Shown here piece by piece: positions 868 through 10,583 of a DNA stretch of 39,889 nt. The notes beneath the pieces are model-generated. The model was given only the letters and a program-made list of their open reading frames with translations, was not told the origin of the DNA and did no database searches. Source of the DNA: SAR324 cluster bacterium. Its GTDB lineage: Bacteria > SAR324 > NAC60-12. Positions within the stretch are counted from its first letter, which is position 1; each line of letters starts with the position of its first letter. Where the stretch lies: positions 1 through 39,889 of the forward strand of contig JAQWOT010000390.1 in the NCBI GenBank assembly GCA_029245725.1. Reading direction: 5' to 3'. The position numbers and the translations under genes are program-made.

Positions 868-2571
868 CTATTCACCAAGAACCAATCCTTCTCTACGTGG
901 ATCTGCCCCACCAACCAGTCCACCTGATGAGACAACAATCCCCTGAATTCCACTCGTAAGTGAACGCACACTAACTTTGTGTCCCCGTTGTTCCAATTCT
1001 GCCATCAGTTGCTCTGTGGGAGTTTCAACTTCCAGTTCCAGAGTTCCAAAATTTTTAGCTAGGTTTGGCAGACTGATCGCGTCCTGTATATCCATGTTCC
1101 ATTCAAGTACCCCCAACAGAGTTTTTGCAACGTATGGAATGATCCGACTACCACCAGGTGAGCCAACAGCCATGTGCAACTCACTTTTTGCGTTGAATAC
1201 AAGTGTGGGAGACATCGAAGAGCGAGGACGCTTCCCGGGCTCAAGTCGATTGGCAATCAAGCGACCATTCTGTTCTGGTCGGAAGGAAAAATCAGTCAAT
1301 TCGTTGTTGAGCAAAAATCCCCTGGTCATCAGGCGAGAGCCAAAGCCGTTTTCAATAGTGGTCGTCATACTGACAGCGTTGCCTTGAGCATCTACAATCA
1401 CGAAGTGACTCGTAGAAGGTAGTTCTAACGACATGTCAGGACTAAGTTGATAACTCAAAGCTGTCGGCGGTGAGCCTGCAGACAGATTACCAGAGGCTTT
1501 ACTCGGGTCGATCAACTTGGACCGCATCTCTAAATATTCAGGGTCAAGCAAACCTTCAGTTGGCATGTCTACATAGTCACTATCCGCCATGTAAAGACCT
1601 CGATCTTTGAATGCCAGTTGGTTGGCCTCTGCAAAAAGATGGGTGAATTTCAGTCCGGTTGGAGACATGTCTCACAAATCGAAGTGACTCAGCATCCCCA
1701 ACATTTGTCCAATGGTAAGCGCTCCTGAAGAAGGTGGTCCCATTCCACAAATTTGATACTGCTTGTAGTCATGGCAAATTGGTTGTCTCTCAATAACCCA
1801 ATAATTTCTTAAATCAGCGAGTGATAGTTTGCCTGGGTTACCCTTTGCTTCTTGAACAGTACGAACAATGTCCCTCGCAATTTCACCATAGTAAAATGGG
1901 TCGCTACCCTCTGCGGCAATCAGGCGCAATGTTTTGGCGAAATCTGGATTACGCAACAGAGTTCCCTCGGGAACTGGCGTATCACTGTCTAGAAAGAAAT
2001 ATGATTTTGTTGCTGGGAAAGTTTTCAAACGTTTTGCATCCCTCTCCACCGATGCCGCTAGCCTTTTGGAGACCCTGAAGCCCTCTTCGGCAAGTTTAAT
2101 TGTTGGTTGAATCAACTCTCGCCAAGGGAGAGAACCAAAATTTTTATGGGTGACTTCTAGGAGTTTCAATGTTCCTGGTGTTCCAACGGAGCGCCCCCCC
2201 ACAACGCCTTCAAAGAATTTCAAAGGGCTGCCATCCTCTTTGAGAAACAAGTCTCCCTTTGCCTTGAGTGGTGCTGTTTCCCTACCGTCACAACTGGTAA
2301 CTTCCTTCCGTTTGGCATCATAAAACAACAAGAAAGCACCACCACCAATCCCAGAACTCTGTGGTTCCACAAGATTCAGCATGAGTTGAACACCAACCAT
2401 GGCATCAATCACATTGCCTCCCCTGCTCAGAATATCGTAGCCAACTTGGGAAGCCACGGGATTTGCGGTAGCTACCATGAACTTGAGCGCTTTCTTGGAG
2501 CTTTGGGCAAATGCTGGATTCCACAAGAGAGCAACAAAGACCAAGCTAGAGAACAGTCTATTGAAAATCAT
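868..2571 (-). pseudogene. ggt: Gamma-glutamyltransferase interrupted by one in-frame TGA
   Basis: Gamma-glutamyltransferase hydrolyses or transfers the gamma-glutamyl group of glutathione in the periplasm. It is made as one chain that cuts itself at a catalytic threonine. The frame opens with a signal peptide (hydrophobic core and Ala-x-Ala near residue 22) and contains the typical early block around SSGIGGGAF. The nucleophile is the Thr of the TSHF motif, near combined residue 387, and a GGSR block follows at the substrate pocket. Combined length is 567 codons, normal for the family. The reading frame is intact except for TGA at 1672-1674 (codon 300), between HFDL and DMSPTG, in a variable loop before the LAFKDR helix. 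The family has no conserved cysteine there, and the break lies well before the self-cleavage site. An ATG two codons later could restart translation, but no good ribosome site precedes it. A nonsense mutation or a base-call error is most likely. Confidence 0.85.
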
Positions 2572-4480: not shown

Positions 4481-6412
4481 TCATTCCTCTAGGTTGTCAA
4501 TCACAATCGGTTCAATCGGATCCGCCGGTTGGAAACCAAAAATGCGAGCATAGAAATACAGCTCAAGCTCCAGGCAACGCTTGATGTTCTCTGCGATGCG
4601 GAAGCCATGCTGCTCTTTTTCAAAGGGCACATACGCCACAGGGATCCCCTTCGTCCGCAGTGCTTCGACCATCATCTCTGCCTGGTTGGGGGGTACCACT
4701 TGATCCTCCAGTCCATGGAAGAAAATGCAGGGGCTCGAAAGTTGATCTAAATGATTGATCGGTGAACGAGCCTGGTAGACTCCTTTCTCTTCGGGGTAAT
4801 CGCCGATTAGTTGATCCAGGTAGCGCGATTCGAATTTGTGAGTTTCCTGGGCTAGAATTTCCAAGTCACTAATGCCATAGAGGCTCGCTCCTGCTTTGAA
4901 AGTGTCTGCAAAGGTCAAGGCAGCCAGTGTGGTGTAGCCTCCGGCACTGCCTCCCCGGATGGCCAGGCGCAGTGGATCTGCTTTTTGCTGACGCACCAAG
5001 TACTCCGCCCCAGCGACAGCGTCCTCCACGTCGATGATCCCCCACTGACGGATCAACTCATCCTGGTAGGCTCTTCCGTATCCTGTAGATCCCCGATAAT
5101 TCAGGTCGAGCACTCCAAATCCACGCGTTGTCCAGTACTGCATCTTGAAGCTCAGCACTGCGTGGGTAGCGCTGGTGGGACCACCATGTAGCATCACGAT
5201 CAGTGGAGGAGTTTCTCCATCCAGGCCCTGCAAATCTTGGTTTGTCGGAGGGTAGTAAAACCCGTGGGAAACTGCATTTCCCACAGTAGGGAACTCAATC
5301 GTTTGTGGGACAGAGAGGTAGGCCTGATCCAACTCCAAATCTGTCGAAGTCTTGATGGTTTGTATCGTTTCCGTGGAGAGCTCGATTTCGATAATTTCTG
5401 GAAAAAGCGTTGGTGAAGATGCCACTGTCAGGAGTCTGTTATCAGAAAGAGAAAGATTCCTGATGGAGGTATACGGGAGATCCAGATCTTCCAGCTCACC
5501 TGTCTCTGGATTCAGCAAGGCCAGTTGATCAAGATTCTTCTCGCTGTAGCAACAGATGATTTTGCCTGAATCGAGAAACTCGTAATGGTGCATCCCAAAC
5601 ACCCAGTGAGGACCACCAAATTCAGCTTCTCTTGGACATACGCTCTGTCCGGACTGCTCCCGATACAGGTTCCAGTAACCACTCTCATCAGAGATGTAAA
5701 AGAGCTCCCCAGTTGCTGAAAACTGCGGTTGTTGGACAGAGATTTTCTGCTCTACTTGCTTTCCACCCGCCACCGGAATCATTTCTCTGGGCATGCCAGC
5801 TTCGTCCAGTTCAGTAACCCAGATTGTCGATTCGTCCCAGGGCATATTAGGGTGATCCCAAGTCATGAACGCCATCCTTGATCCATCCGGACTGATCACT
5901 GGGGAGCTATAAAAATCGTGCACCTTGACAAGAATCATCAGCTCACCTGTTTCCAGATCAACTGTGCCGATCAGGTTTTGGGGTTCCCCAGAGACGTTGT
6001 GGTCTTCAACCACATAGATCATGCGGTTCCGCCGAGTATCAACACAGCCATTCGCAAAACGATAGCCCTCAGCATGTGTGAGTTGAGTCGGAGCCAGATC
6101 TTCCCATCCCTGGTGATACAGCTGCTGATCTGAAAAATTAGAGAAATAGATGCTGTCTCCATGAATCAGCGAGGCTCCTCCTCCATACTCATGAACCCGG
6201 GTTCTGATGTTGAAAGGAGCTGGTGTGATGTCACTGACCTTGCCGTCTGGATCCTGTTTGACCAGTACCGACCGACCTCCTTCCTGGGGCCGGGACTCAA
6301 TCCAGCAGCGACCATTTTGTAGGGCTTGAGGGGAGGACAAGCCAATGGAACCAGCAACGATCAAGTCCGTGCTGATTGGTGACTTCCAGGAACCGTAAGG
6401 AGCTTTGGCCAT
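4481..6412 (-). CDS. S9 family peptidase (prolyl oligopeptidase / acylaminoacyl-peptidase type)
   Basis: A 643-residue cytosolic serine peptidase. The N-terminal half (about residues 1-360) is a beta-propeller with WD-like repeated strands, for example SPDGSRMAFMTWD and FSATGELFYISDESGYWNLY. It gates access to the active site. The C-terminal alpha/beta-hydrolase domain carries the catalytic triad: Ser489 in RGGSAGGY, Asp570 in GLEDQVVPP and His602 in KEQHGF. The oxyanion region is MLHGGPTSA, typical of S9C enzymes. There is no signal peptide, so the likely job is trimming short or acylated peptides in the cytosol. The ATG at 6412 is followed by a normal N terminus. It lies on the same strand as the MerB-like gene, 205 bases downstream of it, with a small hairpin between them. 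Family assignment is firm; exact specificity is not. Confidence 0.92.
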   Translation of the reverse strand: MAKAPYGSWKSPISTDLIVAGSIGLSSPQALQNGRCWIESRPQEGGRSVLVKQDPDGKVSDITPAPFNIRTRVHEYGGGASLIHGDSIYFSNFSDQQLYHQGWEDLAPTQLTHAEGYRFANGCVDTRRNRMIYVVEDHNVSGEPQNLIGTVDLETGELMILVKVHDFYSSPVISPDGSRMAFMTWDHPNMPWDESTIWVTELDEAGMPREMIPVAGGKQVEQKISVQQPQFSATGELFYISDESGYWNLYREQSGQSVCPREAEFGGPHWVFGMHHYEFLDSGKIICCYSEKNLDQLALLNPETGELEDLDLPYTSIRNLSLSDNRLLTVASSPTLFPEIIEIELSTETIQTIKTSTDLELDQAYLSVPQTIEFPTVGNAVSHGFYYPPTNQDLQGLDGETPPLIVMLHGGPTSATHAVLSFKMQYWTTRGFGVLDLNYRGSTGYGRAYQDELIRQWGIIDVEDAVAGAEYLVRQQKADPLRLAIRGGSAGGYTTLAALTFADTFKAGASLYGISDLEILAQETHKFESRYLDQLIGDYPEEKGVYQARSPINHLDQLSSPCIFFHGLEDQVVPPNQAEMMVEALRTKGIPVAYVPFEKEQHGFRIAENIKRCLELELYFYARIFGFQPADPIEPIVIDNLEE

Positions 6413-6535
6413 ATTTCGTAATCGATGAGGAAAATAAAAGGAATTTGGGTTTGTTTTAAAGCGTTTCGGTCAGCAAAGAGTTACTGACCAATTTGTTGAA
6501 AATATTTTGATGTAGAATAAGAATCCGCAAACGCC

Positions 6536-6617: not shown

Positions 6618-7295
6618 TCAAAAACTCCAGAATGGCCCTGTCATTCCTAATTCAGCAAACATCGCCTGCGTTGAGTCAACCGAGTGTCTTTCCCAATGTT
6701 TTTCTGCTCGCCCAGAGTACCACTGAATCGCTAATTGCTGGCAGGTTTGAAGAGAAATCGTTGCTCCATGATTCTGAGCTGTTCTCTTCAACCAATTCTG
6801 CAAGTGTGCTTTCGAACTGAAAGCGAGGATGGTAGCTCAGGTGAAACCAATTTTTTCCCAGAACCGTTTGGCAGGAACAACAAAATGCACAAGCCATTCG
6901 GAGGTAATTGGCTGGTTTTTACTGATCAGCAAATCCAAATGATCATTACACTCTCCACACCCACACGGAGTGTGACCTTCGGTGTTTTTGCCCAGGATGG
7001 CAGCGATACCGAAGACATCCCAAATTCAATTGCCATAATATTTTTTTTCGTCTATTTGGGCAGTGTAGTTGGTAGGCAAAGCAGAAAACGGATGAGCCAT
7101 CCAGATCGAGTGGCTACCAGGAGCCAGCGCAATATCGTGTGTAGCTACAAGCCGCTCGAAAGCGCTTTCTATTATATTAATCGGCAGTTGAAATCGTTTT
7201 GCAGTTTCTTCTGTCGTCGGTGGTCTCAATGCACTTACGAAGTTTTGATATATGAAGTGCCTCACTTCGGTATCAAACATAGATTCTTTAGCCAT
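6618..7295 (-). CDS. MerB-like organomercurial lyase, predicted selenoprotein with two Sec (TGA) codons
   Basis: Alkylmercury lyase (MerB) cuts the carbon-mercury bond by protonolysis using two cysteines and an aspartate. Here one frame of 225 codons runs from ATG 7295 to TGA 6618 with no TAA or TAG and just two internal TGA codons, 90 (7026-7028) and 153 (6837-6839). Residues 5-75 form the winged-helix N-terminal domain, ending in the family block SIWMAHPFSALP. The core continues YYGN-TGA-IWDVFGI, then PCGCGEC, then VHFVVPAKRFWEKIGFT-TGA-ATILAF, and ends at LGMTGPFW, the normal family terminus. The two TGAs replace the cysteines equivalent to Cys96 and Cys159 of R831b MerB: both pairs are 63 apart. 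Asp93 matches Asp99 and Cys111 matches Cys117. Hairpins follow both TGAs, the second a good bacterial SECIS shape. A pseudogene is the alternative, but two random stops landing only on the two catalytic cysteines is improbable. No merA, merR or merT is in the window, so the true substrate is open. Confidence 0.85.
6808..6824 (-). promoter_or_regulatory. Predicted bacterial SECIS hairpin for the second TGA (codon 153)
   Basis: Reading the coding strand after TGA 6839-6837, the sequence GCTTTC-AGTTC-GAAAGC forms a perfect 6-bp stem with a 5-base loop. The loop starts 18 nt after the TGA and has G as its second base. Published bacterial SECIS models require a short apical loop with a G among its first two bases about 16-37 nt from the UGA. 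This hairpin meets that description while also coding for AFSSKA. SelB would bind it to deliver Sec-tRNA. Confidence 0.65.
6995..7020 (-). promoter_or_regulatory. Candidate SECIS hairpin for the first TGA (codon 90)
   Basis: Downstream of TGA 7028-7026, an outer stem GGAT/ATCC encloses an inner stem GGTA/TGCC (one G-U pair) with loop TCGC. A one-sided GTCTTC bulge separates the stems. The apical loop starts about 19 nt after the TGA, within the usual range. The G is third rather than first or second in the loop, so the match to the consensus is weaker than for the second site. An energy fold is needed to choose between alternative pairings. Confidence 0.4.
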
Positions 7296-7650: not shown

Positions 7651-8064
7651 TCAGCATTGGTCATCTTTCATTTCTCTTCTTCTCATGGGCATCGTATCAA
7701 TTAGAGAGAAAATGTCTTCCAACAACGCAGTACTCGACCTCAGCTTTATCCCACCATCTTTACCCAGTAGCAATAATTGAAACCCAGTATTTGATACTGC
7801 AAACTGTTGGCTCATCTCATCAAACTCCTCCGTCCCTTGAAGCAGATCTATGTGCACAAGATTTCTGTTGGTGAGTGCACAGGTTTTTTCATCAATCTGC
7901 TTTTGAAGGGCCAGGAGTTCTGGTTCTTCCAATGATGAGGAGAAGGTAATGATCACACGGTTTTTCCAAAGATGTTCTTTCAGCAGAGTGGCTTGAAGGG
8001 GCATGGTGGTCACAGGGTTGATGAGCGTGAGGAGCAAAGTAACGGCTAGACGATGGGACACCAC
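7651..8064 (-). CDS. DUF4174 domain-containing exported protein
   Basis: A 137-residue protein. An N-terminal hydrophobic segment (residues 5-20, LAVTLLLTLINPVTT) suggests export. The remainder matches DUF4174: WKNRVIITFSSS at the start of a thioredoxin-like strand, a helix with LALQKQIDEK, and a strand NLVHIDLL. The family signature GKDGGIKLRSS then leads into LFxLIDTMPMRRREM. DUF4174 proteins are predicted thioredoxin-fold proteins without the CxxC. Their function is unknown. The start is GTG at 8064 with a GAGG-type site upstream; an ATG at 8004 would lose the export signal. It ends convergent with the CxxC mini-protein, 48 bases apart. Family is firm, role unknown. Confidence 0.8.
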   Translation of the reverse strand: MVSHRLAVTLLLTLINPVTTMPLQATLLKEHLWKNRVIITFSSSLEEPELLALQKQIDEKTCALTNRNLVHIDLLQGTEEFDEMSQQFAVSNTGFQLLLLGKDGGIKLRSSTALLEDIFSLIDTMPMRRREMKDDQC

Positions 8065-10166: not shown

Positions 10167-10253
10167 AATTTCTTTACAGTTGAGTCATGAACTGTGTTAA
10201 TGAAATTGTTGTGAGTGTGACTACTCGTTACTCAATCAACCATGGAGCAGACT

Positions 10254-10583
10254 ATGTCATCAAAGATCCCAGATAATTCTCGAAGACACCTCCTAAAAAT
10301 AGCCGCTACAGGAGCTCTGTTAGCGCCCTTCGCAAAATTTGCGAGCCAGTCAGCGTATGCTGGCGGTCACGAAAAGAAATTGGAGTTGGACAATCCACAA
10401 GCCAAAGCCCTGCAGTACGTTCATGTGGCTACAGAATCAACAAGCTCCCTTTATAAGGATGGATCAATCTGCGGTAATTGTGTGCAATGGAAGGGTGGAG
10501 ATGCCGAGTGGGGCCAGTGCGTTCTTTTTGCTGGCGTTGTTGTGGCGAATTCAGGGTGGTGCTCTGCATGGGCGAAAGGATGA
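10254..10583 (+). CDS. High-potential iron-sulfur protein (HiPIP)
   Basis: HiPIPs are small periplasmic electron carriers with one [4Fe-4S] cluster. From ATG 10254 the protein has 109 residues. A twin-arginine signal (SRRHLLKIA, residues 9-17) ends near AYAGG, as expected because HiPIP is folded before export. The four cluster ligands are visible as Cys73, Cys76, Cys89 and Cys103 in CGNC, WGQCVLFAG and GWCSAWA, with family spacing. A GGAG ribosome site lies just upstream of 10254; it is part of the frame if the earlier ATG at 10242 is used, so 10254 is preferred. It probably passes electrons between a cytochrome complex and an oxidase or reductase. No partner gene is adjacent. Confidence 0.9.
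   Translation: MSSKIPDNSRRHLLKIAATGALLAPFAKFASQSAYAGGHEKKLELDNPQAKALQYVHVATESTSSLYKDGSICGNCVQWKGGDAEWGQCVLFAGVVVANSGWCSAWAKG

Follow-up and report, generated by a model that had tools for sequence, protein, structure and literature searches.

Candidate double selenoprotein of the MerB fold in a SAR324 bacterium, with UGA codons at both catalytic cysteine positions

The DNA stretch considered here, referred to as the window, comprises 39,889 nucleotides of contig JAQWOT010000390.1 from a SAR324 cluster bacterium (assembly GCA_029245725.1). Its minus strand contains a MerB-like gene, which in this genus is situated between genes for an S9 peptidase and a DUF4174 protein, an arrangement kept in four genomes. 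An earlier reading of the sequence alone had singled out the frame as that of an organomercurial lyase with selenocysteine (Sec) in place of both mercury-binding cysteines. When re-examined, the frame of 225 codons was indeed broken only by TGA codons 90 and 153, below called site 1 and site 2. The distances described in that reading were reproduced as well: 63 residues between the two TGA codons, with Asp93 at +3 and Cys111 at +21 from the first. The features are listed in Table 1.

Table 1. Features of the MerB-like locus, in window coordinates
Feature	Positions	Strand	Details or basis
Double-Sec MerB-like gene (predicted)	6618..7295	-	225 aa and TGA terminator (6618-6620); ATG at 7295
UGA codon 90, predicted Sec, corresponds to MerB Cys96	7026..7028	-	profile alignment
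UGA codon 153, predicted Sec, corresponds to MerB Cys159	6837..6839	-	profile alignment
Asp93 codon, corresponds to MerB Asp99	7017..7019	-	profile alignment
Cys111 codon, corresponds to MerB Cys117	6963..6965	-	profile alignment
Conserved RNA structure after UGA 90, possible non-canonical SECIS	6969..7021	-	alifold, synonymous shuffles
SECIS-like hairpin, loop 18 nt after UGA 153	6808..6824	-	identical in four genomes
Flanking S9-family peptidase gene	4481..6412	-	adjacency in four genomes of the genus; not shown to be part of the system
Flanking DUF4174 gene	7651..8064	-	adjacency in four genomes of the genus; not shown to be part of the system

The protein translated through both TGA codons scores 69.7 bits with the Pfam family MerB (PF03243), whose gathering cut-off is 27. 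Single-sequence search of PDB sequences produced no match, and a profile search was required. When a profile of 35 relatives was aligned with solved MerB structures, site 1 fell on Cys96, site 2 on Cys159, and the acidic residue at +3 from site 1 on Asp99. This confirms the proposed correspondence of the TGA codons to Cys96 and Cys159 of R831b MerB; the equivalents of Asp99 and Cys117 are kept too. Both Sec sites are among the eight invariant columns of the 35-sequence alignment. The AlphaFold model of the read-through protein has pLDDT 92.5 and pTM 0.90, and all 11 PDB fold matches with E < 0.001 are MerB, the best TM-score being that of MerB2 (0.66/0.71). The family fit suggested from sequence motifs is thus upheld by the Pfam profile and by the top fold match. 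The protein has the same fold as MerB (PF03243; R831b MerB, PDB 1S6L/3F0P; MerB2, PDB 5C17) and retains recognisable positions 96, 99, 117 and 159. However, the identity in the structural alignment is only about 15%, the residues predicted at 96 and 159 are Sec instead of Cys, and the gene is not accompanied by a mer operon.

Both TGA codons are present in four of the six genomes of the genus (that of the window and three others), and the genes of the three further genomes contain no internal stop beyond these two. The dN/dS ratio among the four genes is 0.06-0.31, with comparably low values in the segments before the first TGA, between the two and after the second. Genes that are about 20% identical and have two TGA codons in the matching columns were found in more distant genomes of the class; we call them the sister clade.

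GTDB genomes were scanned with the sister clade, and the best 80 of 112 loci were retained. In a set of 86 related genes, 64 are Sec/Sec, 21 are Cys/Sec, and one is Cys/Cys. Accordingly, site 1 is TGA in 64/86 relatives and a Cys codon in the rest, and site 2 is TGA in 85/86; the exchange between Cys and Sec, expected for a selenoprotein family, is thus seen at both columns. Only one other internal stop occurs in the 19,439 codons of these genes: it is a TAG at codon 212, near the C-terminus, of a Dehalococcoidia copy (L096). Random stops across the gene, which would have spoken against the sequence-only reading, are absent, and its argument that chance or decay is an unlikely source of the two TGA codons is strengthened by their matching positions in four genomes. 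In a tree of 85 genes the state of site 1 changes several times, with 8 changes in all. As the scan started from Sec/Sec sequences and kept the best 80 of 112 loci, Cys/Cys relatives are under-sampled. The scan patterns left the second site out, and thus Sec at site 2 was not selected for.

The family extends over several bacterial phyla: among the best 80 of 112 loci, carriers were observed in Lambdaproteobacteria (SAR324), Desulfobacterales, Syntrophaceae, Nitrospinae, Chloroflexi including SAR202, Rokubacteria, Poribacteria, and Olavius symbionts. Nearly all carrier genomes are metagenome-assembled, and single assignments may be wrong.

Cys/Cys relatives (merB of Sphingomonas panacis, Paraburkholderia sp. 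PGU19, and genome G009) have 27-30% identity over nearly the full length and Cys at both Sec columns. They differ in the motif at positions 96-99, CxxC as against CxxD, and in the lack of an equivalent of Cys117. The loci from S. panacis and Paraburkholderia (L135, L136) lie on plasmids, and that from G009 (L020) is chromosomal. At position 99 the sister clade has Glu and the nearest Cys/Cys relatives have Cys. Because of these replacements and the missing Cys117, substrates may differ between the clades.

The window genome is 99.3% complete and contains the Sec machinery. We found a tRNA-Sec with anticodon TCA, SelB (349 bits), SelA (508 bits) and SelD (382 bits), the selD gene itself having one in-frame TGA. 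Hence selA, selB, selC and selD, on whose presence the sequence-only reading depended, are all there. SelA scores above the cut-off in 45 of the 50 sister-clade carrier genomes and in 1 of the 14 controls. The presence of SelB was considered as a discriminator at the level of the phylum and dropped, as nearly all genomes carry SelB.

A loose bSECIS scan discriminated poorly, with 144/149 Sec sites passing but also more than half of the controls (188/344), and it was replaced by a stricter test of the loop position. Sister-clade genes have a hairpin with a G[G/U] loop 15-22 nt after the UGA. The loops are typically GGUCU at 17 nt for site 1 and GGUC at 19 nt for site 2. At site 1 of the sister clade the hairpin follows the UGA in 59/60 genes and the Cys codon in 8/21 genes (Fisher p 7e-9), and at site 2 it follows the UGA in all genes (80/80). 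None of 27 terminator UGA codons is followed by such a hairpin in the loop-position test. Synonymous recoding rarely recreates the sister-clade hairpin. In a group of mostly Rokubacterial Cys/Sec loci (L104, L105, L107-L113) the hairpin is largely lost at site 1 and kept at site 2.

In the genus of the window, site 2 is followed by the hairpin GCUUUC-AGUUC-GAAAGC, identical in four genomes, and synonymous recoding yields a match at a rate of about 0.003-0.023. The region of site 1 is also structured, with an alifold energy of about -24 kcal/mol over 60 nt and a mean z of -2.8 relative to synonymous shuffles, which ranks second among 57 positions. However, no canonical apical SECIS loop was found at site 1, and here the case for the window gene is at its weakest. 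As to the SECIS hairpins expected after both TGA codons, the genus thus has one of the canonical type at site 2 and an RNA structure without the canonical loop at site 1, whereas the hairpins of the sister clade are clear at both sites. Covariation in the two structures does not exceed that of shuffles; four genomes offer too little variation for it to speak either for or against them. No SECIS family was detected in the gene by Rfam scans, either at the gathering level or in the permissive mode.

No mer genes were observed near the MerB-like gene in either clade, and all matches to the MerA profile in the window genome are below the cut-off. This is weak evidence, since merA is missing from about half of the merB-bearing genomes (PMC8261052). 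In a further genome of the genus (G004, contig C46 around 6426-6437, L137), the flanking genes are kept and the MerB-like gene is nearly all deleted, with about 17 first codons left. Thus the gene is dispensable. In SAR202/Chloroflexi genomes (L089, L091, L093, L094) the Sec/Sec gene is followed, after tens of bases, by genes resembling modA, modB and modC, and a divergent XRE-type regulator is encoded upstream of the MerB-like gene at SAR202 loci. The modABC-like neighbours could be a clue to the substrate or to the regulation in SAR202; they were assigned by resemblance only, without a family-library scan.

One MerB-like selenoprotein has been described, the organometallic lyase SaoL (NF040728; Haft and Gwadz 2023, as listed in PMC13188914), with one Sec in the motif CU. 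Unlike SaoL, the window protein has two predicted Sec residues and no CU motif. It scores 29 bits with the SaoL equivalog, whose cut-off is 140 (37-54 bits for sister-clade members), and 19.3 bits with the NCBIfam MerB equivalog NF009710 (cut-off 193). No MerB-like model of NCBIfam of June 2026 exceeds its cut-off on the window protein or sister-clade members. The last column of the SaoL profile aligns with the second Sec of a relative, L029, and from this we infer that the Sec of SaoL probably occupies the Cys159 position. Another catalogued family, NF041115 (metal-binding, putative mercuric reductase, motif UxxU; PMC13188914), resembles the window protein in being mercury-related and having two Sec residues. 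However, the window protein belongs to a different family, with a different motif and no NCBIfam match. The 2026 catalogue of 119 prokaryotic selenoprotein families contains no MerB with two Sec residues, SaoL being its only MerB-like entry (PMC13188914). A MerB selenoprotein is not mentioned in PMC2398784, PMC5029168, PMC12013277 or PMC8318568, a set without the primary papers that deal with SaoL, the gene neighbourhoods of selenoproteins or the Olavius selenoproteome. Hence, as far as these sources go, the suggestion that a diselenol MerB is new holds for the second Sec, whereas the single-Sec MerB-like selenoprotein had already been catalogued; the novelty is the double-Sec form.

The conserved frame, the alignment of the UGA codons with the catalytic cysteines, the fold, the Sec machinery, the hairpins, and purifying selection beyond both UGA codons are supported directly. 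Sec insertion itself is inferred, and there is very little doubt in our minds that Sec is encoded at both sites. It is likely that the product is a full-length functional MerB-fold selenoprotein with MerB-type chemistry, although there are no data on the protein, its selenium or its activity. That its job is that of an organomercurial or organometal lyase is somewhat favoured, the substrate and catalysis being inferred. Thus the initial interpretation as a MerB-like diselenoprotein is supported, and the lyase activity and the mercury substrate remain inferences from it. Given the absence of a mer operon and Glu in place of Asp99 in the sister clade, the latter assignment should be made with caution.

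In MerB, mercury is held by Cys96, Asp99 and Cys159; Asp99 also helps in transferring protons, and Hg(II) is finally taken off by thiols (PMC4525700). By analogy, the host Sec machinery would read UGA 90 and UGA 153 as Sec and the third UGA as stop, so that two selenols and Asp93 would take the places of Cys96, Cys159 and Asp99. The two selenolates could then capture an organomercurial or a similar organometal, and the carboxylate would help to deliver a proton to the metal-bound carbon, after which the hydrocarbon would leave. The metal may stay at the Se-Asp-Se site until it is removed by thiols or some other acceptor; this route of release is inferred. Mercury binds selenium more strongly than sulfur. 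Tighter binding of the metal by the selenols is expected from general selenium chemistry, in the absence of binding data.

It is possible, and we retain it as a tentative alternative, that the natural job of this MerB-fold double selenoprotein is not organomercurial cleavage. It could act on another organometal or a metalloid, bind or transfer a metal tightly, or perform redox reactions through a Se-Se bridge. Such a role would agree with the lack of mer genes near the gene in both clades and of a clear MerA in the genome, with Glu or Cys replacing Asp99 in the sister clade and the nearest Cys/Cys relatives, with the modABC-like transporter genes after the gene in SAR202 genomes, and with the filing of SaoL together with organometallic metabolism and transporters (PMC13188914). 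On the other hand, the window clade keeps the equivalents of all four residues Cys96, Asp99, Cys117 and Cys159, and a missing merA is common among merB-bearing genomes (PMC8261052).

The other explanations concern the UGA codons themselves. The absence of a canonical SECIS loop at site 1 in the genus leaves room for a model in which only one UGA encodes Sec and UGA 90 acts mostly as a stop, producing an 89-residue fragment or a regulated mixture. We consider this improbable, as the most strongly structured RNA region of the gene is that of site 1, hairpins follow both sites in the sister clade, and purifying selection between and after the UGA codons implies that the read-through part is used; besides, bacterial SECIS elements outside the consensus are acknowledged (PMC13188914). 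A decaying pseudogene or sequencing errors might be suspected from the gamma-glutamyltransferase gene of the same window, which has a unique TGA at an Arg codon, and from the deletion of the MerB-like gene in one genome of the genus. We reject this explanation as scarcely credible: it is contradicted by the recurrence of these two codons in four genomes and by dN/dS ratios that stay low before and after each TGA, and TGA stands at both columns in 60 sister-clade genes (best 80 of 112 loci). Finally, UGA in frame could reflect a changed genetic code with UGA read as Trp or Cys. However, UGA also terminates this very gene, its in-frame occurrences are confined to the cysteine sites, and the genome has the full Sec system. 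The changed code is rejected too, its chances being negligible. Sec at both sites thus remains the preferred reading.

Methylmercury detoxification is the textbook role of MerB. The Sec/Sec enzyme makes it testable whether the second selenium speeds up cleavage, tightens the capture of trace amounts or traps the metal, and a comparison is possible as Cys/Sec and Sec/Sec forms coexist in nature. Ordinary gene annotation would truncate such double-UGA genes. Moreover, there may be a widespread uncatalogued family of organometal lyases outside mer operons, in Lambdaproteobacteria/SAR324, Desulfobacterota-type bacteria, Chloroflexota and others, with Sec in place of Cys159 and either Sec or Cys at position 96, providing selenium-dependent breakdown of methylmercury or other organometals; we see this possibility as evenly balanced. 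If it is true, gene surveys miss the family because the genes are cut short at the UGA. Surveys requiring Cys at both 96 and 159 (e.g. PMC8261052) would also leave it out, and the number of organometal-attacking bacteria in oceans, sediments and groundwater may thus be underestimated.

The gamma-glutamyltransferase gene of the window (868-2571, minus strand) is split by one in-frame TGA at 1672-1674, at a position occupied by CGA (Arg) in G001, the one relative compared. This lone TGA looks like a recent nonsense mutation or a sequencing error, not Sec, and is instructive when set against the two TGA codons of the MerB-like gene. The HiPIP gene of the window (10242-10583) has a relative with one in-frame stop in the same genome G001 (L120, 11305-11643).
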